IMG/VR virus record: IMGVR_UViG_3300030098_002069
Span: 19,072 to 73,241 of that record
DNA from: a virus
DNA length: 54,170 bases
Reading direction: 5' to 3' (one strand)
The translations under genes and the position numbers were made by a program. Shown here one piece after another: positions 8,961-27,992 of this stretch. The notes beneath the pieces were generated by a model. It made no database searches. It had not been told where the DNA came from and saw only the letters and a program-made list of their open reading frames with translations. How positions within the stretch are numbered: position 1 is the first letter of the stretch; every line of letters begins with the position of its first letter.

Positions 8961-9371
8961 TTAACTGATTGTTATTCCAGCTGCAACTTTTCCAAGTCCA
9001 CCAACTATGTAGTAGTTAGTGCCATCAGAAACTATTTTTATCCAGTCACCAGCAACTGACGAACCACCAACAAAAGTAATAGTAGTATCACTACCATCAC
9101 TTGTATCAGCTACGTCATCTGCTGCACCAGCACTTACAGAACCAATTATTGCTCCAGATGGAGTAACTACAGTATAGTTAGCTCCTGATGGAGCTCCCTT
9201 TACTACAAAGGTTCCTTCCCAACCCTTATTACTAGGAGCTGGAAGTGTTGTTGCAAACTCTGTTGCATGATTTAGCATAAAAACCTTACCACTATCTGCC
9301 AACGATAAAGTTGACGCTTCAGTAAGCTCTTTTATACCTGCGTTTGAACCACCTAAATAAGGTCTAGCCAT
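8961..9371 (-). CDS. putative capsid decoration/stabilisation protein
   Basis: 136 residues, Gly/Ala/Thr/Ser-rich and predicted all-beta, beginning MARPYLGGSNAGIKELTEA and containing GDWIKIVSDGTNYYIVGG. It is encoded next to the major capsid gene, where head decoration or cement proteins normally lie. No catalytic residues. Structural role inferred from composition and position. Confidence 0.55.
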   Translation of the reverse strand: MARPYLGGSNAGIKELTEASTLSLADSGKVFMLNHATEFATTLPAPSNKGWEGTFVVKGAPSGANYTVVTPSGAIIGSVSAGAADDVADTSDGSDTTITFVGGSSVAGDWIKIVSDGTNYYIVGGLGKVAAGITIS

Positions 9372-9382
9372 AATATGCCTCC

Positions 9383-15979: not shown

Positions 15980-16168
15980 TTATTCGTCATCATAATTATA
16001 TAGTATTCCATGCGTTTCCATTTCTTTTAATGCGTCTAAAGCTACTCCAGAAAGAAATTCTGGCTCTGCTGTAGGCATTACGGAAATAACATGCAATGCT
16101 CTTATGGCAATCTCTAATTGGTCAGATGTTATGTATTGATCGTTGTGTTCATAGTCATCATGTAGCAT
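15980..16168 (-). CDS. hypothetical protein
   Basis: 62 residues, acidic and His-rich at the start (MLHDDYEHNDQY), one amphipathic helix after. It overlaps the small-terminase candidate by 11 bases and lies in the packaging operon. Not recognised. Confidence 0.5.
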   Translation of the reverse strand: MLHDDYEHNDQYITSDQLEIAIRALHVISVMPTAEPEFLSGVALDALKEMETHGILYNYDDE

Positions 16169-16937
16169 CTTGTTCGTTTGTTTCCTCTTTTCTTTGTACT
16201 AATAGCTTCTTTTCCTCAGTTGCTATAGTATCTGCTATTTGCTTTGTCAAATCTATTTGAACTGTATCCGTTGTAATCTTTTTACTAGGCTTCATTTCTA
16301 ATAAATCCATTATTTGGTCATTTGCCTTTAAGAAATTGTTTACATCGCCTTTATTTTCTGCCATATGCAAGGCACGTAACAAGTTATCTACGGCAAATTC
16401 CTTATTTACGCTCTTTCCAGCTAGTAAATCTTTTAATTTTTCTTCTACCATGCGTTTTGCTACCTTTTGTTTTAAAAACCTACGTACTGTTGCTTCAGGT
16501 ATCTTTTGATCTGGGCGATATATGTTGCCTAGAGCAGAAAAATCCACCTTATCCCCTGATAATAGCATATTAGCGTAGGCATTTACTGTATTTTTGGCTC
16601 TGGTTGTACCAGCTTCCTGTTCTTCCCAGCCTTTTGCTGGATTTGTCTTAGAATACACATTATATGCGTGATTCGTTTCAAATTTTATAGAAGAAAATGA
16701 AGAACACCAGCCAACTCCACACGTTAATTTTACAAATGTACGTGTATTTCCGTTCCTATCTGTATAATCACTACGTGATATGCATTCTGACACATAGTCA
16801 TCGTCTGTTATGCCCCAATCACCCGTGTCACACTCTTTCCAATAAAGATATTTCAGCTTTTTCTTATCTGCTTCAGCTTTTGTATAGATAGGATACATTG
16901 CTGTTTTATTTTTTATTCTTCTTTTAATTTTTATCAT
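16158..16937 (-). CDS. small terminase subunit candidate
   Basis: 259 residues. Basic N-terminus (MIKIKRRIKNK), a central Cys-containing beta region (LTCGVGWCSSFSSI), then a long helical C-terminal half ending in a Gln/Glu/Lys tail. First substantial gene of the packaging operon, two genes upstream of the large terminase, which is where the DNA-recognition subunit is usually found. No unmistakable helix-turn-helix could be read, so the role rests on position. Confidence 0.4.
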   Translation of the reverse strand: MIKIKRRIKNKTAMYPIYTKAEADKKKLKYLYWKECDTGDWGITDDDYVSECISRSDYTDRNGNTRTFVKLTCGVGWCSSFSSIKFETNHAYNVYSKTNPAKGWEEQEAGTTRAKNTVNAYANMLLSGDKVDFSALGNIYRPDQKIPEATVRRFLKQKVAKRMVEEKLKDLLAGKSVNKEFAVDNLLRALHMAENKGDVNNFLKANDQIMDLLEMKPSKKITTDTVQIDLTKQIADTIATEEKKLLVQRKEETNEQDAT

Positions 16938-17570: not shown

Positions 17571-17571
17571 T
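17536..17571 (+). terminator. double hairpin before early unit 1
   Basis: Two adjacent short hairpins, GAGAC/GTCTC (17536-17550) and AGCTTAG/CTAAGCT (17555-17571), run directly into the repeated TTCCTCTATCTCT motif. This matches the hairpin-plus-motif arrangement seen between later early units. Confidence 0.5.
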
Positions 17572-17595
17572 TCCTCTATCTCTAGTATATTGTAA
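17571..17595 (+). promoter_or_regulatory. repeated early motif, copy 1
   Basis: TTCCTCTATCTCTAGTATA, first of about twelve copies of a motif with consensus TTCCTYTATTTSTG followed by an AT-rich TATA-like stretch. It lies 50-70 bases before the 92-aa gene. Proposed promoter or combined terminator-promoter element. Confidence 0.5.
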
Positions 17596-17643
17596 TCCTT
17601 ACAGTATACGTTGAGTAGTTAACTAAATCACAGGAGTAATCTT

Positions 17644-17922
17644 ATGAAATCTTATTTAATAAATATACTTGAAAATGCTATCTATAACGCTTTGGTTAGA
17701 TACCAGACTCATTGTCTTGATAACATCGGAGAGGTCTTTGAAAAGACAACAGATGCAATGACTGATTGTTTACCTACCATTATGAAATCCGTTGAAGATA
17801 TGATTAACTCTTCTAGTTTATCAGAAGAGGATGTTCCAGAATGGACTATCCCATCAGATCCAGACGCAACGGAAGAGATTGTTAATCATAGTGAAGAGAA
17901 TGGTGTTCCATTACCTTTCTAG
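17644..17922 (+). CDS. early hypothetical protein
   Basis: 92 residues, helical and acidic, C-terminal part Glu/Asp/Pro-rich (EEDVPEWTIPSDPDATEE). AGGAG stands at the ideal distance before the ATG. First gene of the plus-strand early region, in its own unit between a motif copy and a strong hairpin. Not recognised; such first-expressed small proteins often target host functions. Confidence 0.65.
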   Translation: MKSYLINILENAIYNALVRYQTHCLDNIGEVFEKTTDAMTDCLPTIMKSVEDMINSSSLSEEDVPEWTIPSDPDATEEIVNHSEENGVPLPF

Positions 17923-17939
17923 CCCACCTAATTTATATA

Positions 17940-17976
17940 CCCCTAGTAGTCTCGCTACTAGGGGTTTTCCTTTATC
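17940..17976 (+). terminator. intrinsic terminator after unit 1
   Basis: Ten-base perfect stem CCCCTAGTAG/CTACTAGGGG with a five-base loop (17940-17964) followed by TTTTCCTTTAT. Confidence 0.75.
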
Positions 17977-17988
17977 TCTGATATAAAA
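17967..17988 (+). promoter_or_regulatory. repeated early motif, copy 2
   Basis: TTCCTTTATCTCTGATATA directly after the hairpin and 34 bases before the next start codon. Confidence 0.5.
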
Positions 17989-18000
17989 AGGAGTAATCAA

Positions 18001-18183
18001 ATGAGAGTATGTCCATTTACTGGAGAACTATACCAAGGAGAGATTGTTAAATCAACTTGTGATAGTTGTGATAATTCTACCACTTATGAGGAGTGTGCTT
18101 ACGGAACAGATGTGTTAGTATTATGCAAAGAGTGTTCTTCAGACTGTAGCTATACAGCAGAAGATATTGAATCATTAGTCTAA
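18001..18183 (+). CDS. early Cys-rich mini-protein (zinc-binding)
   Basis: 60 residues with seven cysteines arranged C-P-F-T-G, CDSCDN, C-A-Y-G and CKECSSDC. Two CxxC pairs make a treble-clef or zinc-ribbon fold likely. AAGGAG precedes the ATG. Alone in its unit. Function unknown; possibly binds a host protein or nucleic acid. Confidence 0.65.
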   Translation: MRVCPFTGELYQGEIVKSTCDSCDNSTTYEECAYGTDVLVLCKECSSDCSYTAEDIESLV

Positions 18184-18189
18184 TCATTT

Positions 18190-18223
18190 GGGTGTTGGGA
18201 GCTTTGCTCCTTGCACCCTTTTT
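18190..18223 (+). terminator. intrinsic terminator after unit 2
   Basis: GGGTG/CACCC stem (18190-18194 with 18214-18218), with GAG...CTC pairing inside and a five-T run after it. Confidence 0.7.
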
Positions 18224-18269
18224 ACAGGGGGGCTAGTCACTAACAACAACAACAATTAAAACAACTAGA

Positions 18270-18294
18270 GAACTACTCGCTACGCTCATAGTTC
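18270..18294 (+). terminator. weak hairpin before early unit 3
   Basis: GAACTA/TAGTTC stem (18270-18275 with 18289-18294) leading into a diverged motif copy. Confidence 0.4.
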
Positions 18295-18312
18295 CTCCTC
18301 TATGTATAATAA
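18292..18312 (+). promoter_or_regulatory. repeated early motif, diverged copy 3
   Basis: TTCCTCCTCTATGTATAATA; the CCTCTATGTATAATA part aligns with the consensus after a short insertion. The 72-aa gene starts shortly downstream. Confidence 0.35.
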
Positions 18313-18327
18313 ATAAAGGAGTACAAT

Positions 18328-18546
18328 ATGTATAGTTTTGAAGAGTTTGTAGATAAATATGGAGAAAAGATAGATATAGAGTTAAGTGAGAATGGTGCTG
18401 ATAGAGAGATGGATTTTGATAGAGAGAAAGAATATTTGGTAAGATATGATAGATATTTGATGAAAGATAAATGTTTTGATATATATGATTGGATTGATAA
18501 ATATGGAGAAGATTTGATAAATGATGTAAGTAGGATTAATAGTTGA
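18328..18546 (+). CDS. early hypothetical acidic protein
   Basis: 72 residues, very rich in Asp, Glu, Lys and Tyr, with FVDKYGEKID near the start echoed by WIDKYGEDLI near the end, which suggests an internal repeat. Strong AAAGGAG upstream. Sole gene of its unit. Not recognised. Confidence 0.6.
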   Translation: MYSFEEFVDKYGEKIDIELSENGADREMDFDREKEYLVRYDRYLMKDKCFDIYDWIDKYGEDLINDVSRINS

Positions 18547-18551
18547 AAAAT

Positions 18552-18598
18552 AGCACCTAGTAGCTGATGTATATCTAGCTACTAGGTGCTTCCTTTAT
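18552..18598 (+). terminator. intrinsic terminator after unit 3
   Basis: Perfect 14-bp stem AGCACCTAGTAGCT with AGCTACTAGGTGCT (18552-18590) and an 11-base loop, running straight into TTCCTTTATTT. Confidence 0.8.
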
Positions 18599-18610
18599 TT
18601 GTGTTATTAA
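18590..18610 (+). promoter_or_regulatory. repeated early motif, copy 4
   Basis: TTCCTTTATTTGTGTTATTAA immediately after the 14-bp hairpin and 20 bases before the AGGAG of the next gene. Confidence 0.5.
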
Positions 18611-18630
18611 TAACTAACATAGGAGTTCTT

Positions 18631-18819
18631 ATGAATAAGCATATTCAAAATACTGGATATTTTCTCGTAGGTAGTGCTGTTATTACAGCAATGGCTTGTA
18701 AAACTGTCTTCACGTATGCCAAAACAGGTGTTGAAACCTGTATAGAAGTTGGCAAACGTGCTAATTGCACAGAGCCATTGCATGAGCATCATGACGGATG
18801 TCCTGCTTGTGACGTGTAA
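18631..18819 (+). CDS. early membrane/exported mini-protein
   Basis: 62 residues from ATG 18631, chosen because AGGAG lies 6 bases upstream; an ATG at 18586 would lie inside the terminator. A hydrophobic stretch (FLVGSAVITAMACKTVFTYA) near residues 10-30 is followed by a region with four more Cys and HEHHDGCPAC. It could be membrane-anchored with a metal-binding tail. Function unknown. Confidence 0.6.
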   Translation: MNKHIQNTGYFLVGSAVITAMACKTVFTYAKTGVETCIEVGKRANCTEPLHEHHDGCPACDV

Positions 18820-18829
18820 TATGTTAATA

Positions 18830-18862
18830 GAGGCTAGTACTAGTACTAGCCTCTTCCTTTAT
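18830..18862 (+). terminator. intrinsic terminator after unit 4
   Basis: Perfect 24-base palindrome: GAGGCTAGTACT at 18830-18841 is followed directly by its reverse complement, ending at 18853. TTCCTTTATTT follows. Confidence 0.75.
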
Positions 18863-18873
18863 TTCTGATAATG
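18854..18873 (+). promoter_or_regulatory. repeated early motif, copy 5
   Basis: TTCCTTTATTTCTGATAATG, directly before a stretch that contains no ORF but a closed RNA-like structure. Confidence 0.5.
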
Positions 18874-19048
18874 TAAATATTGCCCTAAGATGGTTCATAA
18901 GTCTATCTGGTATACAAACCTTCTCGTGTAGTAATACATAGAGTTGTCCAGATTAGCGGAAGTGTATTACTGCATCACATCAGATTCAGAGTCAATCAGA
19001 TTCAGAGTCAGATGTTGGGATTAATCAACCCATTAGGGCATATATTTA
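18874..19048 (+). ncRNA. predicted structured non-coding RNA (unit 5)
   Basis: No ORF with a ribosome site lies between two hairpin/motif elements here. The ends pair: the TAAATAT-TGCCCTAA side (18874-18888) is complementary to TTAGGGCATATATTTA (19033-19048) apart from one base. Inside, AGTAATACA pairs with TGTATTACT, and CAGATTCAGAGTCA is repeated in tandem (18981-18994, 18997-19010). The stand-alone unit with a closing stem suggests a transcribed RNA rather than a spacer. Confidence 0.55.
18981..19010 (+). repeat. tandem repeat within unit 5 RNA
   Basis: Two identical 14-base copies of CAGATTCAGAGTCA separated by AT, period 16, in the middle of the putative RNA. Confidence 0.8.
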
Positions 19049-19051
19049 TTT

Positions 19052-19088
19052 AGAGGCTAGAGTTAAAACACTAGCCTCTTCCTTTATC
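19052..19088 (+). terminator. intrinsic terminator after unit 5
   Basis: AGAGGCTAG/CTAGCCTCT perfect 9-bp stem (19052-19060 with 19071-19079) followed by TTCCTTTAT. Confidence 0.75.
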
Positions 19089-19103
19089 TGTGATAATATT
19101 TAA
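19079..19103 (+). promoter_or_regulatory. repeated early motif, copy 6
   Basis: TTCCTTTATCTGTGATAATA, 17-20 bases before the GGAGG of the 50-aa gene. Confidence 0.5.
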
Positions 19104-19119
19104 CTAATATGGAGGACAT

Positions 19120-19272
19120 ATGTCTAAAGAAAAGAAAAATAATACTGTAACTAAAGTAATCTCTTCTAATGATAAAATGAAAATGGTTGTTGTTCAAACT
19201 ACTGTTCCTAATAAAAAGAACCGTAAAGGGCAACCTTTCAGAACATCTGTGACTAAACACATAAAAAAGTAA
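19120..19272 (+). CDS. early basic mini-protein
   Basis: 50 residues beginning MSKEKKNNTVTKVIS, with a Lys/Arg-rich tail. GGAGG lies 5 bases before the ATG. Bounded by a motif copy on one side and a strong hairpin on the other, so it is a complete one-gene unit. Not recognised. Confidence 0.6.
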   Translation: MSKEKKNNTVTKVISSNDKMKMVVVQTTVPNKKNRKGQPFRTSVTKHIKK

Positions 19273-19274
19273 CT

Positions 19275-19318
19275 AAAAGCTAGAGCTGGTGTATTCCAGC
19301 CCTAGCTTTTTCCTTTAT
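19275..19318 (+). terminator. intrinsic terminator after unit 6
   Basis: AAAAGCTAG pairs with CTAGCTTTT and GCTGG with CCAGC inside it (19275-19310), then TTCCTTTATTT. Confidence 0.75.
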
Positions 19319-19333
19319 TTCTGGTATATTTTG
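19310..19333 (+). promoter_or_regulatory. repeated early motif, copy 7
   Basis: TTCCTTTATTTCTGGTATA, the best match to the consensus, 33 bases before the AGGAG of the 46-aa gene. Confidence 0.55.
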
Positions 19334-19360
19334 TTAACTAGTTAACCATAGGAGTTTGAT

Positions 19361-19501
19361 ATGACTGTTCAGCTACATTCTGTAACAGATAGCTTCTGGA
19401 ACTTCGTTACGGAGTTTGGTTCTATTATATCTATTGATAGAATAGATTACCCTACCCAGATGCTAGCTCACGAAAGAGCACTTGAGAATATAAGAGATTG
19501 A
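19361..19501 (+). CDS. early mini-protein
   Basis: 46 residues (MTVQLHSVTDSFWNFVTEFG at the start), mixed charge, no Cys, no membrane helix. AGGAG precedes the ATG by 7 bases. One-gene unit followed by a structured stretch. Not recognised. Confidence 0.55.
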   Translation: MTVQLHSVTDSFWNFVTEFGSIISIDRIDYPTQMLAHERALENIRD

Positions 19502-19590
19502 GATTTCTCATTAATTGCCCCTCGCACACAGCGGGGGGTCGTTAAACATTTATAACAAGCTACGGAAAGTTGTTCTTTCCATAATCTCTT
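19492..19590 (+). ncRNA. structured 3' region of unit 7, possible RNA
   Basis: AAGAGATT at the end of the 46-aa ORF pairs with AATCTCTT at 19583-19590. Inside lie CCCC...GGGG, GTTA...TAAC and GGAAAG-TTGTT-CTTTCC hairpins. It may be a separate RNA or a structured 3' untranslated region. Confidence 0.35.
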
Positions 19591-19619
19591 CTTCGCAAGA
19601 TAAGAAGATACAAAACTGG

Positions 19620-19648
19620 AGGCAGTCTTAGGACTGCTTCCTTTATTT
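19620..19648 (+). terminator. intrinsic terminator after unit 7
   Basis: AGGCAGTC/GACTGCTT stem with a four-base loop (19620-19639), then the T-rich motif copy. Confidence 0.7.
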
Positions 19649-19657
19649 CTGGTATAG
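19638..19657 (+). promoter_or_regulatory. repeated early motif, copy 8
   Basis: TTCCTTTATTTCTGGTATAG, identical to copy 7 over the first 19 bases. The 108-aa gene starts 40 bases downstream. Confidence 0.55.
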
Positions 19658-19697
19658 CAACCACGCTATATCAAACCCTAACACAGGAGTTATAGTT

Positions 19698-20024
19698 ATG
19701 ACTATAAAACTAAAGAAAGCAATTGCTTCATATTTTGAGGGACTTACACCATCAAACATCTGGTTTGGTAGAAGTAAGAAAACTGAATCTGGAGACTGGA
19801 TCAATGAATCTATTAACGTAGAAGATATTAACACATCTGATGCAGATTGGATAGTTAATATGTTCGTTCGCACTTCCGAGTGTGACGTTGATGAGTTCAA
19901 TGAGACAGTTGAGGAGCTATCGGAGTTAAAGTGTCGTTTAGACGCTGATACGGCTCATGAGTGTAAAGACGATGTAGTTCGCTACATGGTTCGGAGACGC
20001 TTACCAGCCGTTTCTAATAGCTAG
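19698..20024 (+). CDS. early hypothetical protein
   Basis: 108 residues. Basic N-terminus (MTIKLKKAIASYFEG), acidic centre, and an Arg-rich end (YMVRRRLPAVSNS). Strong AGGAG upstream. Codon use near the end (GTTCGC, CGTTTAGAC) is less AT-rich than in neighbouring genes. Not recognised. Confidence 0.6.
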   Translation: MTIKLKKAIASYFEGLTPSNIWFGRSKKTESGDWINESINVEDINTSDADWIVNMFVRTSECDVDEFNETVEELSELKCRLDADTAHECKDDVVRYMVRRRLPAVSNS

Positions 20025-20086
20025 TTCAGACTAGTAATCTTGGGGGCATCATTTATGGTGTCCCCAGACTCATTAAAAGAATGTGA

Positions 20087-20101
20087 GTCCTTTGGACTCT
20101 C
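20087..20101 (+). terminator. perfect hairpin after the 108-aa gene
   Basis: GAGTCC-TTT-GGACTC perfect stem-loop, preceded by a second pairing (GGGG..CA with TG..CCCC near 20042-20066). No T run follows, so it may be an RNA element rather than a simple terminator. Confidence 0.4.
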
Positions 20102-20149
20102 GTTAATATAGTTAATTCAACACAACATAGTTTCCCCCTTTGCTACGGG

Positions 20150-20380
20150 AACTTAACAACAAGAAAGGATAATCTTTTCGAAGAAGAACTAAAACATCCA
20201 ACAAGTATAGAGGTACAACAAGTTATTGAGTGGATCAGTAAGTTAAAGGCTAAAGACGATTATGTAAGAGGATTTGAAGACGCTAGATCAGAGGCTGTTA
20301 GTATTCTTATTGGTGCAATACAAGAACTTGAATACCTTCAAGATGCTGTTTATGATAATGAATTTTTATACTATCTATAG
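20150..20380 (+). pseudogene. open frame without a usual start codon
   Basis: A frame running into the TAG at 20378 reads as a plausible helical protein (FEEELKHPTSIEVQQVIEWI... ending DNEFLYYL), with AAAGGA at about 20164 placed as a ribosome site. No in-frame ATG, GTG or TTG exists between the upstream stop and the protein-like part. Either translation starts at a rare codon (CTT/TTC region, about 20174-20179) or the start was lost. The next gene follows with a strong AGGAGG. Confidence 0.4.
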
Positions 20381-20389
20381 GAGGATATT

Positions 20390-20599
20390 ATGACTAAGTA
20401 TATTGTATTATTAATAGGTTGCATAGAGTGTGGTGTCCCATCATACCCTATTGCAGTAACAGAAACAAAAGAACAAGCAGAAATTATTGTGAATCAACAA
20501 GAAAGTACATGGGAATTGTACGGTGGAGATGGATATTATGACATCTGGGAGGTGAGTCACATACCAAAAGGAAATGAGTTATTAACTAATTCTAGTTAA
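20390..20599 (+). CDS. early hypothetical protein
   Basis: 69 residues beginning MTKYIVLLIGCIECGV, then TETKEQAEIIVNQQES and an aromatic YYDIWEVSHIP. The beta-alpha-beta pattern resembles small phage proteins that follow the same TETKEQAE style, but no named family is certain. AGGAGG lies 5 bases upstream. Confidence 0.6.
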   Translation: MTKYIVLLIGCIECGVPSYPIAVTETKEQAEIIVNQQESTWELYGGDGYYDIWEVSHIPKGNELLTNSS

Positions 20600-20604
20600 A
20601 CTTC

Positions 20605-20629
20605 TTCCTCTATTTTTGCATTAAATTTG
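20605..20629 (+). promoter_or_regulatory. repeated early motif, copy 9
   Basis: TTCCTCTATTTTTGCATTAA right after the 69-aa gene, with a short AACTA/TAGTT stem (20584-20597) before it. It precedes the 227-base structured stretch. Confidence 0.45.
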
Positions 20630-20853
20630 TATAGAGTCAATGTGAGTCTGAATAATGTCATAAGCTGGGCATAAAGACCACAATAACTAGACGGACTATG
20701 GTGTCTGTAACAAATCATTGATGCTCAAATGAGTAAGGTGTGCTAGTTAAGTTGTGAAGAATGGAATAAAAGCTAACAGGCTTAATACCATCATTCTTAT
20801 GCAGGTGGGTTGACGAACCCAATCGTTAGAGTCCTGTCATTAACTCTGTACAA
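20627..20853 (+). ncRNA. predicted branched non-coding RNA, about 227 nt
   Basis: The ends pair over 11 bases (TTGTATAGAGT with ACTCTGTACAA, one G-U). Inside, CACAATAACTAG (20679-20690) pairs with CTAGTTA-AG-TTGTG (20743-20756). AGAATGG pairs with CCATCATTCT with a bulge, and GGGTT-GACG-AACCC is a perfect hairpin (20807-20820). No ORF with a ribosome site occurs in the region. It follows a motif copy and precedes the 76-aa gene. No tRNA or known RNA family is recognisable. Confidence 0.55.
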
Positions 20854-20869
20854 CTAAAGGAACAATTAA

Positions 20870-21100
20870 ATGAAAGTAAATTACCAATCAAAATATATAG
20901 GTATTGATACAATACTTACCTATTTAAATAAAGAACTTAAAAGAGTTAGAGCTAAAATAGATGAAATATACGAATTATATCAAAATGACCCAGACACACA
21001 TGGAGTAGAAGTATATGAATGCGATGATTATATTGAATATTGCGGTATATCTCGTTATCTTCATAAACTCATAAAGAAAGTTGAAGAAGGATCTATATGA
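20870..21100 (+). CDS. early hypothetical protein
   Basis: 76 residues with an amphipathic Lys/Glu helix (LNKELKRVRAKIDEIYELYQ) and an acidic, Tyr-rich segment. AAAGGA lies upstream; the stop overlaps the next start (ATGA). Translationally coupled to the MazG-like gene. Not recognised. Confidence 0.6.
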   Translation: MKVNYQSKYIGIDTILTYLNKELKRVRAKIDEIYELYQNDPDTHGVEVYECDDYIEYCGISRYLHKLIKKVEEGSI

Positions 21101-21390
21101 CTTACAACAAACAAATCATCAAAAGAATCGAAGAAAGACTTGAGCATGGTAAAAAAGAATATCCTGACGATCTAAATGTTCATGATGGAAGAAACTGGCT
21201 CAAAGAAACAGTTGAAGAGCTACTTGATTCTCTAGTATATGTAACAGCATTTGCTATACAACTAGAAGAAACAACAAGAAGAAAAAACAATCCACATAGA
21301 TTTTCTTGTGTAAAATGCGGTAACGGATTTGCACAAGCTAAAGATTCTGAATTATGTATATATTGTTATAAAAAAATATACAATACATAG
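21097..21390 (+). CDS. MazG-like helical protein with C-terminal zinc ribbon
   Basis: 97 residues. Residues 8-55 (ERLEHGKKEYPDD, then KETVEELLDSLVYVTAF) carry the helical E..EELLD pattern of MazG/dUTPase-like all-alpha NTP pyrophosphohydrolases. The last 30 residues form a ribbon with CVKCG and CIYC. It is shorter than typical MazG proteins, and only part of the metal site (E-E-D) can be read. It may clean up nucleotides or bind RNA through the ribbon. Moderate support for the fold, weak for activity. Confidence 0.5.
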   Translation: MTYNKQIIKRIEERLEHGKKEYPDDLNVHDGRNWLKETVEELLDSLVYVTAFAIQLEETTRRKNNPHRFSCVKCGNGFAQAKDSELCIYCYKKIYNT

Positions 21391-21435
21391 GGTAGTTACG
21401 GCTAAAACCACCATTCGTAACCAGCGTGGTCTACC
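21391..21435 (+). ncRNA. RNA element E1 of structured array
   Basis: GGTAG pairs with CTACC at the ends. TTACG pairs with CGTAA inside, while ACCAC could pair with GTGGT in a pseudoknot. It carries the ACCAGCGTGG sequence that recurs in element E4. Confidence 0.4.
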
Positions 21436-21445
21436 TTATTATCTA

Positions 21446-21508
21446 TACACTAGCTTACATTAACAAGCAAAGCTCGAGCACGCCGACTAAGGGTTGTAAG
21501 TTAGTGTA
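21446..21508 (+). ncRNA. RNA element E2 of structured array
   Basis: A 14-bp end-closing stem with one G-U pair, TACACTAGCTTACA with TGTAAGTTAGTGTA, enclosing a 35-base loop. No ORF. Confidence 0.5.
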
Positions 21509-21511
21509 AAT

Positions 21512-21587
21512 TAGCTTATCATATCTCCTGCGACTCATCGATTGTATTCAACATGAGCGTATACAGTTAAGATTAAATGATAAGCTA
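21512..21587 (+). ncRNA. RNA element E3 of structured array
   Basis: An 11-bp perfect closing stem (TAGCTTATCAT with ATGATAAGCTA) encloses CTCAT/ATGAG. Total 76 bases, starting 3 bases after E2. Confidence 0.5.
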
Positions 21588-21592
21588 TATAA

Positions 21593-21667
21593 GTGCAGAT
21601 GTTTAGAACCACAAGTGTCACGTAAAAGCTGTTACAATACCAGCGTGGGGCAACAGCACATCTGCAC
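21593..21667 (+). ncRNA. RNA element E4 of structured array
   Basis: A 10-bp perfect closing stem (GTGCAGATGT with ACATCTGCAC) with GCTGTT/AACAGC stacked just inside, and a loop carrying ACCAGCGTGG. Total 75 bases. Confidence 0.5.
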
Positions 21668-21685
21668 AAATTGTTATAACAGACG

Positions 21686-21762
21686 CTGGGATGGACTATG
21701 AATAAGGTAGTTGAGAACCTTGAAACATGGATAACATAAGAGATTCGCCATGAACATCCCAG
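21686..21762 (+). ncRNA. RNA element E5 of structured array
   Basis: An 8-bp closing stem (CTGGGATG with CATCCCAG) with two internal hairpins, AAGGT-AGTTGAGA-ACCTT and CATGG...CCATG. Total 77 bases, followed 18 bases later by a T-rich run. Confidence 0.5.
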
Positions 21763-21810
21763 AAGATTTATTGATAGTTATTTTTTTTAGAGTTAAATTA
21801 GTATATAGGG

Positions 21811-21873
21811 GAAGTGGGTCTTTTTTCAATTATCAACTCCTTTGATATGGTTAAAACCTGCTTCCTCTATTTC
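21811..21873 (+). terminator. long-range hairpin before unit 10
   Basis: GAAGTGGGT pairs with ACCTGCTTC with two G-U pairs (21811-21864); the motif copy follows directly, as after other early hairpins. Confidence 0.4.
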
Positions 21874-21886
21874 TGCATTCTAACAA
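21862..21886 (+). promoter_or_regulatory. repeated early motif, copy 10
   Basis: TTCCTCTATTTCTGCATTC, seven bases before the GGAG of the next gene, so any transcript starting here has a very short leader. Confidence 0.45.
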
Positions 21887-21902
21887 AACTATGGAGTTGT
21901 AT

Positions 21903-22187
21903 ATGAAATGTTATTATCATCCCGATATAACTCTACAACACCAAGAAGTATCATATCGGGATTACACACAGCCTCAGGATGATGTACTGGGGGAATCAAG
22001 AAACAAAATTCAAGATGTTCTGTATTGCCCTGCGTGTTTTGAAGAACATGCAGATAAAGGTAAGCCAATGGAACAAAATTTGGTAGCAGACCATTTTGAA
22101 TATACTATTACACCTGATGAATTAAGACAGATTGAATCAGATATTGAAACAAATATTGAAAATCAGGTTAATGAAAGGATGACATGA
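21903..22187 (+). CDS. early hypothetical protein with Cys/His pairs
   Basis: 94 residues from ATG 21903, chosen because GGAG lies 6 bases upstream; the ATG at 21891 overlaps that site. It has CYYHPD near the N-terminus and CPACFEEH in the middle, a likely zinc site, then an acidic helical end. Four-base overlap with the next gene. Not recognised. Confidence 0.55.
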   Translation: MKCYYHPDITLQHQEVSYRDYTQPQDDVLGESRNKIQDVLYCPACFEEHADKGKPMEQNLVADHFEYTITPDELRQIESDIETNIENQVNERMT

Positions 22188-22492
22188 TGAATAAACTGTC
22201 ATTTGTAGGACAACTTAGTAAAACATTAGGTTATGTTGCTTTTGCATTAAACAATGTAATCCGTTTTGCAGGTAGTACTACACAACGTATTACAGATAGA
22301 ATAACAAGTATCGATAGATATAATATAGAAATACTTGTTAACGGAGCTACTATGGTAGAGCATAAGAATCAATCAGCTGCACAATTATCTAGATTGTTAA
22401 CAACAATGGATAACTTTGGTGTTACTGAGGTAATTATAACAAAAAAGATAAAGGCTGATGATGTTTCAAGTAATACAAAAGTCAAAGACTGA
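22184..22492 (+). CDS. early hypothetical protein
   Basis: 102 residues (101 from the second ATG at 22187). Contains two beta/alpha segments and a basic end (ITKKIKADDVSSNTKVKD). GAAAGG precedes the start. It overlaps the next gene by 35 bases. Not recognised. Confidence 0.55.
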   Translation: MMNKLSFVGQLSKTLGYVAFALNNVIRFAGSTTQRITDRITSIDRYNIEILVNGATMVEHKNQSAAQLSRLLTTMDNFGVTEVIITKKIKADDVSSNTKVKD

Positions 22493-22766
22493 TGCAAAAA
22501 CACGGATTTGGAAAAGTGACCTATATAAAAAAACATGGGAAGAAGTTTACGCTGATATTGATAAAAAAAACGACACAGGATACTATAAAGGTCAAAAAAT
22601 AACATACTATTCTAAAATACAAGACAAAAAAGAGCTAACAGAAGTGATCCCAAAATTCTATGAAAGAAATATGGGTACATTTAAAACACTAGATATAGCT
22701 AAGTCTGTAGTAGAAAAGTGTAATCTTGGGTTCCCTAGTATGGAACATGAGATAGTTGAAAAATAA
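22458..22766 (+). CDS. early hypothetical protein
   Basis: 102 residues, basic N-terminal half (QKSKTDAKTRIWKSDLYKKT) and several Tyr and Lys, no Cys pair. AAAGG lies close to the start. Coupled to the preceding gene by overlap. Not recognised. Confidence 0.55.
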   Translation: MMFQVIQKSKTDAKTRIWKSDLYKKTWEEVYADIDKKNDTGYYKGQKITYYSKIQDKKELTEVIPKFYERNMGTFKTLDIAKSVVEKCNLGFPSMEHEIVEK

Positions 22767-22772
22767 CTCAAC

Positions 22773-22827
22773 GGGGAAGACATTAGATTAAACAGTTAAG
22801 GAATTTTCTGTTTTCGACCTCTTCCCC
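22773..22827 (+). terminator. hairpin between early genes
   Basis: GGGGAAGA pairs perfectly with TCTTCCCC across a 39-base loop. No T run follows. It could be a weak terminator or a regulatory stem before the 58-aa gene. Confidence 0.45.
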
Positions 22828-22851
22828 TGCGAGTAAAACAAAGGAGTTAAC

Positions 22852-23028
22852 ATGAAAAATATATCTTCAACACGTGAACTATTTATTAAAATACAAAAAT
22901 TTTTAGATAGTTTAGGTTCAGGTAAACCATTTAGTGTAAAATACGCAAAAGAGCTAAGTAACGATATATCAGTACTTAGAGGAATGGTTGATGAAGAAGT
23001 AGCTAGTTATCAACAAGAACATGAGTAA
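22852..23028 (+). CDS. early mini-protein
   Basis: 58 residues beginning MKNISSTRELFIKIQKFLD, helical, neutral to acidic. AAAGGAG lies upstream. Overlaps the next gene by 8 bases. Not recognised. Confidence 0.6.
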   Translation: MKNISSTRELFIKIQKFLDSLGSGKPFSVKYAKELSNDISVLRGMVDEEVASYQQEHE

Positions 23029-23224
23029 GAAAATAAGAGCAATATCATTTGATAATGCTAGAGAAATAAATACATTGGTATCAGTATTAAAAAGAGCTTC
23101 TAGTGCAATAGAACAAAAATATTATACTGAAGACGAAAGAATACAGATCAAAAAACTATTATCTGTAACATTAGAAGTTCAACAAATGTTTTTCGAAGGA
23201 GAAAAAGATGCCATTAATAAGTAA
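23021..23224 (+). CDS. early hypothetical protein
   Basis: 67 residues, helical, with KKIRAISFDNAREINTLVSVLKR. No clear ribosome site, so translation is probably coupled to the preceding overlapping gene. Overlaps the next gene by 17 bases. Not recognised. Confidence 0.55.
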   Translation: MSKKIRAISFDNAREINTLVSVLKRASSAIEQKYYTEDERIQIKKLLSVTLEVQQMFFEGEKDAINK

Positions 23225-23453
23225 CTGTTGTGGTGCAGAAGATGTGTCCCCTTTTGGAGATGCATCTTATAGTGATATGAAAGTATGCCCAGATTGCAAA
23301 GAACATTGTGTCTTTGAATGCTATGAGCATAATCCAGTATATCAACAACCAGAACCAGAAAATAACGTACAAGAAGCATACTATTGCGATGAATGTGGTG
23401 AAGGACTACCACTTTTAGAGCAAGATATTATGCTTGAGGCAAAGGAGGAATAA
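23208..23453 (+). CDS. early zinc-ribbon protein
   Basis: 81 residues with CCGAED, CPDCKEHCVFEC and CDECGEG, four CxxC-like knuckles likely making two zinc sites. AAGGAG precedes the ATG. The stop overlaps the start of the DUF932 gene by one base, so the two are probably co-translated. Zinc-binding is well supported; role unknown. Confidence 0.65.
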   Translation: MPLISNCCGAEDVSPFGDASYSDMKVCPDCKEHCVFECYEHNPVYQQPEPENNVQEAYYCDECGEGLPLLEQDIMLEAKEE

Positions 23454-24478
23454 TGCCTGATTTTATTGACACAATGATGTATGTTGGTGAAACACCTTGG
23501 CACAAAGAGGGTGTCAAGTTAGAAAGACCACCAACAATCAACGAAGCACTTAACCACTCAGGATTGATGTGGGAAGTGCAAAAAAGACCTACATATTACA
23601 ATCTTAATCCAAGTATATATGGTTCTAATTCATCAAATAACGAATCAGAAGAAGGATTTGGGAATGTAAGTACTGGACATTTTGTAACAGTACGTACAGA
23701 TACACAACAAGTATTGGGACATGTATCTGGTAGGTATGAAGTATTACAGAATCGTGAAGCTTTTGAACCATTTGAACCGATGTTAGATATGGGATTTACC
23801 CTAGAAACAGCAGGTGCAGTACAAGATGGTAAAAAGATATGGGTACTTGCAAAAGCACCTGAATCTTCAATGGTTGGAAATGATGTAATAGACCAATATG
23901 TATTATTATATACATCTCACGATGGTTCAGCTGGTAGTACATTTAGACCTACAGCTGTAAGAGTTGTGTGTTATAATACACTTGAATTAGCACTTTCTAG
24001 AGAAAGTAAATGGAACTATAAATTAAAACATACTAGTAGTATTAGAGATAGAGTAAAGAATCTCACTAGTATTATAGAAAGATCCAATGGTGACTTTAGA
24101 ACTGCTATAGATGATATGAATAGGTTTCAAGATAGATATATTAACGAAGATGAGTTAAAATTATATCTAGAAACAGTCATACCATTTCTAAAGAATAGGC
24201 ACAAAGAAAGTATTCCAGAAATGGGTATCTTTGTTCGCAACACAGCAAAACCTGTGTACGATAAAATTGTAGATAACTTCTACAATGGAAGAGGAAACAA
24301 TGGTGAAACATTGTGGGATGCTTATAATGCTATTACTGAATATTATACTCATGATAAAGAATATAAAGACTGGGTAAAACAAACACAGTTTGGTAAACCA
24401 TATGATTATAAAGTAAAAGCATTTAAAGTTGCTAAAATGATTGCAAATGTTGATATGGAAGATATTACTATCAACTAA
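23453..24478 (+). CDS. DUF932 / phage-plasmid-like protein
   Basis: 341 residues. The N-terminal PWHKEGVKL and later TVRTDTQQVLGHVSGRYEVLQNREAF and CYNTLELALS are signatures of the DUF932 (TIGR03299) family found in phages and plasmids. Family members often lie beside single-strand annealing proteins, as here, which suggests a part in recombination or replication. No enzymatic activity is established. Strong AAAGGAGG upstream. Length is normal for the family. Confidence 0.8.
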   Translation: MPDFIDTMMYVGETPWHKEGVKLERPPTINEALNHSGLMWEVQKRPTYYNLNPSIYGSNSSNNESEEGFGNVSTGHFVTVRTDTQQVLGHVSGRYEVLQNREAFEPFEPMLDMGFTLETAGAVQDGKKIWVLAKAPESSMVGNDVIDQYVLLYTSHDGSAGSTFRPTAVRVVCYNTLELALSRESKWNYKLKHTSSIRDRVKNLTSIIERSNGDFRTAIDDMNRFQDRYINEDELKLYLETVIPFLKNRHKESIPEMGIFVRNTAKPVYDKIVDNFYNGRGNNGETLWDAYNAITEYYTHDKEYKDWVKQTQFGKPYDYKVKAFKVAKMIANVDMEDITIN

Positions 24479-24482
24479 CTGC

Positions 24483-24498
24483 ATCCTCTATTTATGGG
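24483..24498 (+). promoter_or_regulatory. repeated early motif, diverged copy 11
   Basis: ATCCTCTATTTATGGG after the DUF932 gene; it leads into a structured stretch and lacks the TATA-like part of other copies. Confidence 0.35.
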
Positions 24499-24594
24499 GG
24501 AAAACTTAATAATATCTTATAGTAATTATTGAGTGCCTCAGAGAAGTGGCTGGTGGTTGTCTGCAGCACAAACCTAACAAAACACTCCCCATAA
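24492..24594 (+). ncRNA. predicted structured RNA or leader, about 103 nt
   Basis: TTATGGGG pairs with CCCCATAA at the ends, and GTGC...CAG with CTG...GCAC inside. No ORF. It lies between DUF932 and the annealing-protein gene, so it may be an untranslated leader or a separate RNA. Confidence 0.4.
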
Positions 24595-24620
24595 TAACTT
24601 AAACAAAAAAAGGAACAAAT

Positions 24621-25292
24621 ATGAAAAATAAAGTATTTGAGACACTAAGTAAAATAAATGTTAATGATATGACAGAAAAGAAAGGTCGTTTTACGTACCT
24701 ATCTTGGTCAGACGCAGTTAACGCAGTTAAAAATGAGTTTCCAGATACTACATGGAAAAATCATGAGTTTGTTATAGAACATAAAGAAGGTAAATATACA
24801 ATACCTTATATGTTAGACCCTATAACAGGACATGGTTTTGTAAAATGTACAGTAACTATTGAAGGGCAAGAACATGAACACACACACCCTATACTTAATC
24901 ATTTAAACAAGCCTATTGCTAAACCTGATGCATTTGCTATTAATACAGCACAGCAGCGTTGTTTAGCTAAATGCCTTAGTTTACATGGTTTAGGGTTATA
25001 TATCTATCAAGGCGAAGATCTTCCAGTTCTTACTAAAGAAGAAGAAGACCAGCAAGAAATAGATAAGGTTTATGATAGACCAGAAACATTGTTAAATGGT
25101 AAAACACCTGTAGAAGGTGGCATTACAGTCGATCAAAATGTTAAACTAGACAGATTATCACGTGACCCTGCATTAAAAGGAACAGATACACAGTCAGTTA
25201 TTAAAACATATATCGACACAATGCCAACTAAAGAAAGTGCTGACAGAGCAATAACTAAATTACAAAACAAAATAAAGGAAGCTAAGAAATGA
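24621..25292 (+). CDS. single-strand annealing protein candidate (DUF1071-like)
   Basis: 223 residues. The N-terminal GRFTYLSWSDAVNAVKNEFPDT, then TVTIEGQEHEHTHPI and INTAQQRCLAKCLSLHGLGLYIYQGEDLP match the DUF1071 group of phage annealing proteins distantly related to Rad52/Erf. The C-terminal third is a charged linker and helix. It would anneal phage single strands during recombination-dependent replication. Followed by a four-base overlap with the putative SSB, the usual partner. Assignment by motif. Confidence 0.7.
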   Translation: MKNKVFETLSKINVNDMTEKKGRFTYLSWSDAVNAVKNEFPDTTWKNHEFVIEHKEGKYTIPYMLDPITGHGFVKCTVTIEGQEHEHTHPILNHLNKPIAKPDAFAINTAQQRCLAKCLSLHGLGLYIYQGEDLPVLTKEEEDQQEIDKVYDRPETLLNGKTPVEGGITVDQNVKLDRLSRDPALKGTDTQSVIKTYIDTMPTKESADRAITKLQNKIKEAKK

Positions 25293-25870
25293 GATTAGGA
25301 ACTACAAATAACAGTACCTCTAACACTTCGAGTGGTGGAGGTTACAGAACTGTAGAAAAAGTTAAACATGTTACTATAAGATACGATGAGAAACCAGCAA
25401 AGTACATGAAATATAATAGTGATGTATGCTTAGATGTAACATTCACTAGGACACGTAAAGATGGTGAACCTTACGATAAAACATTTACTATATCTGGTAA
25501 TTTTAATCGTGAAAAGAAAACTTGGGGTTCAGCATTTAAGGTACAGCGTTTCTTTGAAGTATGTGATGTAGACACTAAAGACATAAATGATGACTGGAGT
25601 ATACCAGACTCTTGGCTAGATATGGTAGTAGGTAAAGAATTTTCTTTTATCTCTTATCCATCTACTAGAAAGAAAGAAGATGGTAGTCCATATTGGAATG
25701 ATTATGATTTAGTAATGCATCCTAACAAAGGTTCAGACGCACACAAATCTGAATTTATGAAATCTGTTAATGACGGATGGGTAAAAGATTACTCAACTAA
25801 TAGTGCATTAGGAGATTTCGAAGCTGGTTCTGGTAAAGTAGACCTTAATTCTGAGGAACTTTCTTTATAG
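25289..25870 (+). CDS. putative single-stranded DNA-binding protein
   Basis: 193 residues, rich in aromatic and basic residues in an OB-like beta pattern (HVTIRYDEKPAKYMKYNSDVCLDVTF, FNREKKTWGSAF). It ends in a short acidic tail (DLNSEELSL), as SSBs do to recruit partners. It lies between the annealing protein and the primase-helicase. No close family is recognised; the call rests on neighbours, composition and tail. Confidence 0.5.
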   Translation: MRLGTTNNSTSNTSSGGGYRTVEKVKHVTIRYDEKPAKYMKYNSDVCLDVTFTRTRKDGEPYDKTFTISGNFNREKKTWGSAFKVQRFFEVCDVDTKDINDDWSIPDSWLDMVVGKEFSFISYPSTRKKEDGSPYWNDYDLVMHPNKGSDAHKSEFMKSVNDGWVKDYSTNSALGDFEAGSGKVDLNSEELSL

Positions 25871-26142
25871 TGTCAGTACCAACTATTAATCATATTCTGA
25901 AGAAATGGTTACGCAGAAGATTAGATCAGGGAAATTTCGTAGTCGCATCTCACGAAATTGAAACTGATTTACCTGCTTATGGTAGAGAATACTGGGGGAG
26001 ACAACATACCCCCAGTACCTACTCTAGAGCATGGCGTGATTTTAAATCAGGAGATGATATGATAGACATAGATGTAATAAGTATCGAACCAATAAAAAAT
26101 GAAAGCAAACAAACATCATGGATACTAAAGACTGGTATTTAG
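25870..26142 (+). CDS. small basic protein next to primase, GTG start
   Basis: 90 residues starting at GTG 25870, one base into the preceding stop. The N-terminal third is basic and helical (NHILKKWLRRRLDQG), and the middle GREYWGRQHTPSTYSRAWRDF has a winged-helix-like look. It overlaps the primase gene by 25 bases. It may load or regulate the primase-helicase; not recognised. Confidence 0.5.
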   Translation: MSVPTINHILKKWLRRRLDQGNFVVASHEIETDLPAYGREYWGRQHTPSTYSRAWRDFKSGDDMIDIDVISIEPIKNESKQTSWILKTGI

Positions 26143-27956
26143 AATACGCAGTTGGCAGCATATCTAACAGAATGAATATCTGTAGAGTTGACGAGTTTAG
26201 TGATATTGTTAAAAAGAATTTTGGTCAAGAGATATACAACAGTATGTTTCTATATAATCACGATATTATAGACCACGTTAACAAAACAGGTAGTGTTTCA
26301 GAGTTTAACGGTGAACAAGCAATAGATAAAATAGTTCTAGATATTGACCTAGTAGGAGAAAAGTCTGGAGACAAAACAAAAGATAAACTATTAGAATTAG
26401 TAGATGTTATGAATGGCAAAGGCATTGGTAACGAACTAATACAATTATGGTTTTCAGGTTCTGGATTTCACATCCACATACCAAATATCTATGGTTTTGA
26501 ACCATCAAATAACATAGCTAAGATAGTAAGAGCTACTTTACAAAGAGATTTTGGAAACTATATAGATATGATCTATGATAGTAGAAGATTAATACGCTCT
26601 GGGTATTCATGTAACAAAAAAACTAGTTGTTATAAGATACCCTTATCTCTGCAAGAAGTCGAGCTTTGGGACTATGATAGCATAAAGGACTTCGCTAAAA
26701 AGATCCGAAATGACTGGATACCCCCAAAGTTCGATGCAGATAAAGACTACAAGCTAAACGACTTTGAACCAATGGACATAAGTCGTAAAAACTCGAATGA
26801 ACATCGTAAGATATTCGAAAATCGTAGAGGAATTACAACCAGATGGATAACATGTGCACAACACATTTATAATGATGGTGAAGTTCCAAACATGAGACAC
26901 AAGAATCTACTAAGAGTAGTTAGTTTGTGGATAAGACATTATGGATTTGATAAAATAGCCTGTGATAACCTCGCAAGAGCATATATGTCAAAAATGAATA
27001 ATCCACTACCAGCTGACGAAGTTAGTAGACTTGTTGCTGACGCATATAAAATAGGTGGCTATAAATATGGATGCGATGATGAAATACTAAGCCAATATTG
27101 TGATAGTAAATGCACTTTATTTAGATTTAAGAATCTAGATGAAGAAAGCAAAGTACTAAACTCCGATGAAATGGTTGATATGTTAGTAAACTACTTAAAT
27201 ACAGATTTCTCTGATAAGTCATTTAATTTAAAGGATATATTCCCTTTTATGCAAAATGACTTCTTATTTAGAGGTGGTGAACTAGCAATGTTAATAGGAG
27301 ACACAAAACTTGGTAAAACTGCATTCTGGCAATACATAATAGCTAATCTACCAAAAGTAAGCACCTTATTCTTATCATTAGAAGTGGATAAAGAAAAGAT
27401 CACTAGAAGATTTATTCAACAAACACTTAAAATGAATAAAGAAGAAGTGGAAAAATTACTAAAAGAACGAGACTCATATGTAATTAACAAAGCTAAAGAA
27501 GTTATGAGCAATATAAGCCTCACAACTGCTGCAGAAGCACCTGATATAACACAGTATTCTGAACTCATTGAGAAAAGTAATGCTAAAATAGTCGTTGTAG
27601 ATACAATTGATAGAGTGAAAGCTAGGTACGCTAAGAATGACCTACTTCAAAAACAAAACTATATCATAAACGAACTAAAAGACCTAGCAATGAAAGAAGA
27701 AGTTATTATATTAGGAGTATCACATATATCAAAAGGAGCATCTTTTAGATTAAAAGAAGGCGAACGATTAGATATACATAGTGGTAAAGGCAGTAGTGAT
27801 ATGGAGCAAAAAGCTGATACAATAATTAGCTTTGAAGGTGATAGAAACATGAGCAGCAAACGTAGAGTAGAAGCGTTAGGTGCTCGTGATAATACACCAT
27901 TCGAATTACTAGTTAACTTCGATTGGAAGACTTTTACATTTAGTAAAAGAACATAA
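26118..27956 (+). CDS. AEP-type primase fused to RecA/DnaB-type helicase
   Basis: 612 residues. Primase part (about 1-215): catalytic D75-I-D77 (LDIDLVG), SGSGFHIH at 113-120 and RRLIRSGYSCNKKTS at 156-170, the three archaeo-eukaryotic primase motifs. A Cys cluster at about 319-332 (GCDDEILSQYCDSKC) is possibly a PriL-like metal site. Helicase part (about 370-612): Walker A GDTKLGKT at 394-401, Walker B IVVVD at 491-495 and a sensor-like LGVSHISKG. It would prime and unwind DNA at the phage fork; no phage DNA polymerase is present. Confidence 0.85.
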   Translation: MDTKDWYLEYAVGSISNRMNICRVDEFSDIVKKNFGQEIYNSMFLYNHDIIDHVNKTGSVSEFNGEQAIDKIVLDIDLVGEKSGDKTKDKLLELVDVMNGKGIGNELIQLWFSGSGFHIHIPNIYGFEPSNNIAKIVRATLQRDFGNYIDMIYDSRRLIRSGYSCNKKTSCYKIPLSLQEVELWDYDSIKDFAKKIRNDWIPPKFDADKDYKLNDFEPMDISRKNSNEHRKIFENRRGITTRWITCAQHIYNDGEVPNMRHKNLLRVVSLWIRHYGFDKIACDNLARAYMSKMNNPLPADEVSRLVADAYKIGGYKYGCDDEILSQYCDSKCTLFRFKNLDEESKVLNSDEMVDMLVNYLNTDFSDKSFNLKDIFPFMQNDFLFRGGELAMLIGDTKLGKTAFWQYIIANLPKVSTLFLSLEVDKEKITRRFIQQTLKMNKEEVEKLLKERDSYVINKAKEVMSNISLTTAAEAPDITQYSELIEKSNAKIVVVDTIDRVKARYAKNDLLQKQNYIINELKDLAMKEEVIILGVSHISKGASFRLKEGERLDIHSGKGSSDMEQKADTIISFEGDRNMSSKRRVEALGARDNTPFELLVNFDWKTFTFSKRT

Positions 27957-27961
27957 CAATG

Positions 27962-27992
27962 ATAGGGCACTTATTCCTTTATTTGTGCCCTA
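27962..27992 (+). terminator. hairpin after primase-helicase, motif in loop
   Basis: ATAGGGCAC (27962-27970) pairs perfectly with GTGCCCTAT (27984-27992). The loop holds TTCCTTTATTT, the repeated early motif. No T run follows the stem. Confidence 0.6.

Follow-up and report, generated by a model that had tools for sequence, protein, structure and literature searches.

An array of small, stem-closed, non-tRNA RNA elements shuffled among phages

Phage genomes are mostly read for proteins, and roles have been established for very few phage RNAs other than tRNAs. Phage tRNA clusters are rows of stem-closed RNAs of 60–80 nt that are rapidly gained and lost and are traded between phages. The array described here has the same features, but none of its elements is a tRNA. 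The dimerization initiation site of HIV-1 is a purine-flanked six-base loop palindrome, and its lineage alleles stay self-complementary. Element 2 of the array likewise carries a purine-flanked six-base palindrome with self-complementary lineage alleles, although it is not homologous to the HIV-1 site, and its palindrome forms part of the 5' strand of an asymmetric internal loop, next to a GCC/GGU hairpin.

GOLLD, ROOL, and OLE are single large conserved RNAs, and many GOLLD RNAs exceed 800 nt (PMC12286853). In OLE and GOLLD, symmetric kissing contacts have a published signature, the switching of palindromes, and the loops concerned touch in cryo-EM structures (PMC12286853). The array shares with these RNAs elaborate non-coding folds and predicted kissing-loop palindromes that switch letters but stay palindromic (PMC12286853). 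In contrast to them, it consists of many small, separately closed elements in shuffled order, has six palindrome alleles, and has no Rfam match.

The pseudo-ToxI of phage PhiTE is an RNA mimic of a host antitoxin, and ToxI arrays repeat a single 36-nt unit in tandem (PMC3475682). Like pseudo-ToxI, the array is a row of small phage-encoded pseudoknot RNAs that can be expanded or recombined (PMC3475682); unlike in ToxI, no two elements are alike, and the majority are not pseudoknots of the ToxI type. RNA anti-CRISPRs (Racrs) are short phage RNAs, single CRISPR repeats, that occupy host defense proteins by mimicry (PMC10651486). Such occupation, shown for Racrs (PMC10651486), is only proposed for the array, whose folds differ and whose elements exceed a CRISPR repeat in both length and branching. 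Among the papers searched, none was found to describe a set of structured RNAs other than tRNAs that is heterogeneous, shuffled, and single-copy. What is new here is the arrangement and the RNA families, which have no match in Rfam 15, not a proven function.

The array and its setting

The window, the stretch of 54,170 nucleotides that was analyzed, comes from an IMG/VR record of 73 kb; this phage and the relatives described below are uncultured viruses from IMG/VR samples. The array of five stem-closed elements occupies positions 21391–21762 on the + strand and is intergenic. Elements 1–5 are those of a preliminary description of the sequence, in order.

21097–21390, + strand: upstream ORF of 97 residues with a CxxC...CxxC end; its stop codon abuts element 1
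21391–21435, + strand: element 1, stem GGTAG/CTACC around CCAC (21408–21411) / GTGG (21426–21429)
21446–21508, + strand: element 2, the conserved motif TTAACAAGC-W-AAG-palindrome-CACGCC within a closing stem of 14 bp
21472–21479, + strand: self-complementary 8-base loop G-CTCGAG-C of element 2, six variable bases at 21473–21478
21512–21587, + strand: element 3, 11-bp closing stem, core TCTCCTGCGACTCA (21524–21537) / TGAGCGTATACAGTTAAGA (21554–21572), exchangeable tip
21593–21667, + strand: element 4, 10-bp closing stem enclosing a pseudoknot
21672–21681, + strand: linker palindrome TGTTATAACA, within the 18-base linker 5' of element 5
21686–21762, + strand: element 5, three-way junction, closing stem CTGGGATG/CATCCCAG, arms AAGG/CCTT and CATGG/CCATG
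21805–21879, + strand: array end marker, a long hairpin closed by ATAGGGGAAGTGGGT/ACCTGCTTCCTCTAT, then TTCTGCATT
21891–22187, + strand: downstream ORF of 98 residues, a conserved neighbor used as a query for finding relatives

The preliminary description had placed closing stems of 14, 11, 10, and 8 bp on four of the elements, and all four were recovered: 21446–21459/21495–21508 (with one G·U), 21512–21522/21577–21587 and 21593–21602/21658–21667 (both perfect), and 21686–21693/21755–21762. The gaps of 3, 5, and 18 bases between elements were likewise correct. The string reported to recur in the first and fourth elements is ACCAGCGTGG, at 21420–21429 and 21639–21648. Relatives retain chiefly its AGCGTGG part, which carries the 3' strand of the CCAC/GTGG helix in both elements. 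The MFE of the array is -99.3 kcal/mol, compared with -81.6 ± 4.8 for dinucleotide shuffles (z = -3.67, 0 of 100). The raw folding energy is unexceptional, other regions of the window folding equally well or better, and folding energy was therefore not used as evidence.

Searches with neighboring proteins gave the close relatives L002, L003, and L004 and the more distant L005 and L007–L010; the motifs of elements 2 and 3 and of a sixth family gave L011, L014–L018, L020, and L034–L041. Portal and terminase identity of relatives to the window phage ranges from 99% down to about 31%. L016–L018, L034, L036, and L039, some of them short stretches, have no match to any of 29 query proteins. For host assignment, the best relatives of portal, helicase, and terminase are too distant (22–26% identity).

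ARAGORN found no tRNA in the window, nor any in the arrays at related loci; a tRNA-Tyr in L007 is situated outside such arrays. Rfam 15, including GOLLD, ROOL, OLE, riboswitches, and ribozymes, gave no match at the gathering cut-off in the window and 18 loci, and a search at relaxed thresholds gave chance-level matches only. It is scarcely credible that the array is a degenerate or divergent tRNA array: its size and spacing resemble those of a phage tRNA cluster, but neither ARAGORN nor Rfam detects one, an anticodon and a T arm are absent, and the cores and pseudoknots are of other kinds. The original description as an RNA array that is not made of tRNAs is thus strongly supported, since covariation is also present, as described below. 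Likeness to integron attC sites (TTAACAA...GTTG) was judged by inspection only, and the element flanks and palindromes do not fit. No tandem repeat unit builds 21391–21762, where the only repeat is a 20-base, period-10 chance repeat at 21495–21514.

No ORF is situated underneath the array elements. Arrays are always intergenic and share the orientation of their main flanking genes; the few small opposite-strand ORFs near arrays are probably spurious. The upstream 97-residue ORF is retained in L003, L004, and L041 and truncated by a deletion in L002. An ORF of 76 residues adjoining the array (window 20870–21100) is also found in L004 and L041 (58%) and is missing from L002 and L003; it is a protein-coding accessory gene at the same variable spot. 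The array-flanking ORFs have no Pfam match and no convincing PADLOC match, and no known defense or anti-defense gene was recognized beside the array. No toxin gene was recognized there either, which excludes only a full toxin-antitoxin locus, since phage mimics lack the toxin too. In L005, the array is immediately followed by a 259-residue opposite-strand ORF (9066–9845) with a weak helix-turn-helix match, which separates element 2 from the terminator-like hairpin.

The end-marker hairpin is one copy of a repeated element, a hairpin followed by TTCCTYTATYTNTG, which also follows the array in L002, L003, and L004. There are ten copies of this unit in the early region (window 17571–27974), most of them with the hairpin, and TTCCTYTATYTNTG is often followed by TATA-like letters. 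Each copy resembles a terminator joined to the beginning of the following unit. At 18872–19070 of the window, a multi-branched RNA with closing stem TATTGCCCTAA/TTAGGGCATA (z = -6.84, 0 of 200 shuffles) is inserted between two terminator-like repeat copies. It is absent there from L002, L003, and L004 and therefore probably represents the gain of a further RNA cassette. Another non-coding stretch with multiple branches, at 20618–20868 and closed by TTGTATAGAGT/ACTCTGTACAA (z = -3.39), is kept in L002 and L003. Elsewhere in the window, a single ORF of 3028 residues on the - strand (33717–42803) is very large for a 73-kb phage record.

Covariation and predicted folds of the elements

Relatives of element 2 were found with the exact pattern TTAACAAGC-N-AAG-NNNNNN-CACGCC, in which a palindrome was not demanded, and the element is present in the window phage and 10 other contigs. 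Exact-pattern scans favor conserved copies, so that the conservation of the motif letters is in part produced by the search itself; neither the stems nor the palindrome belonged to the patterns. In the 12 pairs of the closing helix next to the core, 98.6% of cells hold standard pairs. Ten of these 12 pairs are changed on both sides, a result matched by none of 500 shuffles, and slid versions of the helix collapse. Among four lineages, the 5' and 3' strands of the same lineage pair at 48 of 48 positions, compared with 68 of 144 when lineages are crossed. The stem contains G·U nine times and A·C never, which indicates that the + strand RNA is selected rather than folded DNA.

The six variable bases are self-complementary in the window and in all 10 contigs found with the pattern. 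Six palindromes occur (CTCGAG, TTCGAA, TATATA, TACGTA, TCATGA, and CCTAGG), and they differ between lineages, so that the letters change and self-complementarity stays, as for a symmetric kissing loop. All three pairs of the hexamer are changed on both sides, with 18 of 18 cells paired against 59% in shuffles. The chance that a random hexamer is a palindrome is 1/64, and as a control, none of 13 other matches to the same or a looser motif in unrelated sequence (L021–L033) was palindromic. Together with the constant G and C, the contact would be an 8-bp duplex of -6 to -15 kcal/mol. Because the middle two bases of the palindrome are adjacent, pairing within one chain is impossible, and two copies must pair. 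Element 2 is thus most likely a symmetric kissing dimer of two identical RNAs, as judged from these alleles.

Within the array, the hexamer has no conserved second site. Pairing of the palindrome elsewhere in the same array was also considered, and no hexamer recurs except CTCGAG in family 7 (L014 and L020); self-pairing is preferred over pairing with another array site. A search for the exact element 2 motif across genomes from 84,980 species of bacteria and archaea gave only two chance, non-palindromic matches, so no host RNA was seen that element 2 copies. Element 2 was also absent from 198 sampled genomes of a single phylum, a result of little weight.

Element 3 occurs in the window phage and 11 other contigs. 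Its core is constant and its tip variable, with two compensated pairs, a weaker covariation than in element 2. The stem foot has a few mismatches, and in L041 one base is inserted on each side. The tip is AGTCTAGACT in most phages and AATCTAGATT in L035, which may be a weaker parallel to the palindrome switching of element 2. Element 3 of L005 and that of L035 are ~98% identical. A 259-residue protein (window 16158–16937) is 87% identical in L005 and only 28% in L035, where no other query protein has a match. Such near-identity despite distant proteins means horizontal transfer, so that elements move between phages. In annotated phages and plasmids, there was no match to the array region or to element 3 beyond chance.

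Element 1 is probably a pseudoknot, in which GTTACG (21395–21400) would pair with CGTAAC (21416–21421). In L003 the GTTAC/GTAAC pairing becomes GTTGC/GCAAT, by eye, and additional hairpin sequence is found at the tip in L003 and L015. In element 4, CCAC (21609–21612) / GTGG (21645–21648) is crossed by GCTGTT (21628–21633) / AACAGC (21652–21657). One compensated pair is present in each pseudoknot helix (L015); with three sequences only, the score was reached by 63 of 500 shuffles. This is moderate evidence for a covarying pseudoknot in element 4. The linker palindrome has a core, GTTATAAC, that is invariant in relatives, so its pairing is only putative.

The arms of element 5 show compensatory changes in four pairs between two alleles. 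A pseudoknot changing from GAAT/ATTC to GGCG/CGTC, seen by eye and with a one-base shift between alleles, is a guess. A hammerhead was considered for element 5, which has a GAAA and three helices in its junction, but CUGAUGA and a UH cleavage site are lacking and Rfam gave no ribozyme match; the hammerhead was rejected.

Shuffling of elements among phages

Eighteen stretches were cross-compared and their sequences read. They draw on a common repertoire of at least 10 element families in shuffled order, and the flanking genes vary among phages while the elements stay the same. The array orders are as follows, with two dots for an unnumbered part and the nested family in parentheses.

Window: 1-2-3-4-5
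L002: 1-2-4-5
L015: 1-2-4
L014: 2-6-7
L041: 6-3-7-5
L004: 6-5-2
L005: 6-3(8)-2
L034: 11-3-9
L036: 11-3-..-12
L038: 9-3-11-..-12-10
L037 and L040: ..-3-10

The families beyond the five of the window are these.

Family 6: TGGGTGCTGAAGCG...CGCCCA, in L004, L014, and L041
Family 7: CCAGACTCT...AGAGTCTGG, L041 7575–7639
Family 8: the element nested in L005
Family 9: GGAGCTGACCGAAGTATGAAG...AGTAGGAGGCTCC
Family 10: ATGGGATGAG...CTCATCCC, three compensated pairs
Family 11: H-type pseudoknot with three compensated pairs, in L034, L036, and L038
Family 12: CAAGGUCUGCUCUGUACCUUGACACCAAAACAGAGC, L038 2156–2191, laid out by eye as a ToxI-like H-type pseudoknot

Family 7 contains a palindrome, AACTCGAGTT (L014, reverse strand, 1303–1312; L020; L041 7589–7598), with the same hexamer as element 2 in L014 and L020. 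Cross-kissing between family 7 and element 2 is a possible consequence of these matching letters in the two phages. A different candidate three-way-junction element, GGGATGGAAGT...CATCCC, is found at the corresponding place before the hairpin in L009 (~8490–8567) and L010 (~888–962) and is possibly another family.

Whole elements are inserted or deleted between phages whose proteins are mostly 96–100% identical. In L002 and L015, element 2 leads directly to element 4 over a 2-base linker, and the whole of element 3 is absent. In L003, elements 2 and 3 are separated by an extra element with its own closing stem, TTTGTCAAAT...GTTTGACAA. Two insertions are nested: in L005 another stem-closed element is situated within the 3' side of element 3, and in L004 an element-1-like hairpin within element 2. 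Covariance models of elements 2 and 3 found at most one convincing copy per record; with the modeled families single-copy in each record, the arrays are lists of different RNAs and not repeats. The strong evidence for the array is the covariation, the element-wise gain and loss, and the spread to other phages, and from these comparisons the elements are not chance hairpins.

One long multi-domain RNA was a possibility raised in the preliminary description, and the shuffled order and the gain or loss of single elements make it unlikely. In this form, the array would be an oligomer or cage like ROOL or GOLLD, with the element 2 palindrome as the inter-chain contact. It is a densely folded few hundred bases, its palindrome switches as in OLE and GOLLD, and ROOL and GOLLD also occur in phages. 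Unlike in a fixed architecture, however, order and content vary and single elements drop out cleanly. Most element 3 records show no element 2 in the sequence examined, and there is no Rfam match.

Insertion and deletion by element, the nested insertions and the extra element of L003, and the spread between phages would also suit DNA-level elements, either mobile hairpins or recombination or packaging sites used as folded single-stranded DNA, and palindromes are classic DNA dyads too. This explanation is improbable. The element 2 stem holds G·U and A·C at 9 to 0, the orientation is that of the main neighboring genes, no transposase was recognized beside the window array, and the modeled families are not multi-copy per genome.

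The constant intergenic position, the strand shared with the main neighbors, and the terminator-like hairpin that follows in this phage group would be expected of cis-acting mRNA elements, which block exonucleases or set cleavage sites and so tune the neighboring small genes. Compact pseudoknots can resist nucleases. We nevertheless regard such a role as doubtful, because the flanking genes differ among phages while the elements are unchanged, a mere barrier needs no conserved family-specific cores, and it is not obvious what a conserved dimer loop would do in cis. Cis-acting elements and a ROOL- or GOLLD-like assembly, given equal probability, are the main rivals of the reading proposed below.

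An H-type pseudoknot is found in family 11, in other phages; element 4 of the window is a pseudoknot inside a closing stem, and elements 2, 3, and 5 are of other folds. Family 11, which covaries, and the ToxI-like layout of family 12 speak for a phage set of type III antitoxins (pseudoknots like ToxI, CptI, or TenpI) directed against ToxN-like nucleases only, for which PhiTE is a precedent (PMC3475682). The folds of elements 2, 3, and 5, together with the lack of a tandem repeat unit, of a recognized adjacent toxin gene, and of an Rfam match at relaxed thresholds, make so narrow a role very improbable.

Proposed role of the array

We propose that the array encodes trans-acting small RNAs, exchanged as cassettes, that most likely serve as decoys for host RNA-binding proteins or inhibit them in the manner of antitoxins, and we put the probability of this at about one half. 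This reading is favored because compact pseudoknotted RNAs suit protein binding and because phage RNAs provide precedents. Fast turnover, spread, and at most one copy per record are the pattern of accessory genes under host-dependent selection. Among the three possibilities of the preliminary description (a processed array, decoys, or one long RNA), decoys fit the array best.

In the proposed mechanism, the five small RNAs would be carried on a single early-region transcript, and the long closing stem of each would let it fold independently of its neighbors. We infer that the array is transcribed and that its short linkers are probably cut to release single elements. Two copies of element 2 would dimerize through the palindromic loop; element 4 (and probably element 1) would be a pseudoknot, element 5 a three-way junction, and element 3 a bulged rod. 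The released RNAs would act in trans as separate molecules, gained, lost, and traded as accessory units. Their protein targets would be host RNA-binding proteins, above all RNA-dependent defense or toxin proteins, which the elements would occupy in an anti-defense role, and each phage would hold a set suited to the hosts it meets.

More tentatively, the at least 10 small RNA families may be interchangeable cassettes among distant phages, each inhibiting in trans a different host system, and one of them a homodimeric RNA with a diverging dimer code. If so, these pooled RNA cassettes would be the RNA counterpart of anti-defense gene islands. The palindrome code of element 2 offers a sharp test of RNA dimerization, and the covariance models of elements 2 and 3 are ready for metagenome searches. 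In this array, whole families of compact RNAs behave as accessory genes that phages exchange, accumulate, and lose. Should the elements act in trans, they would form a layer of phage-host conflict that is invisible to protein-based searches.
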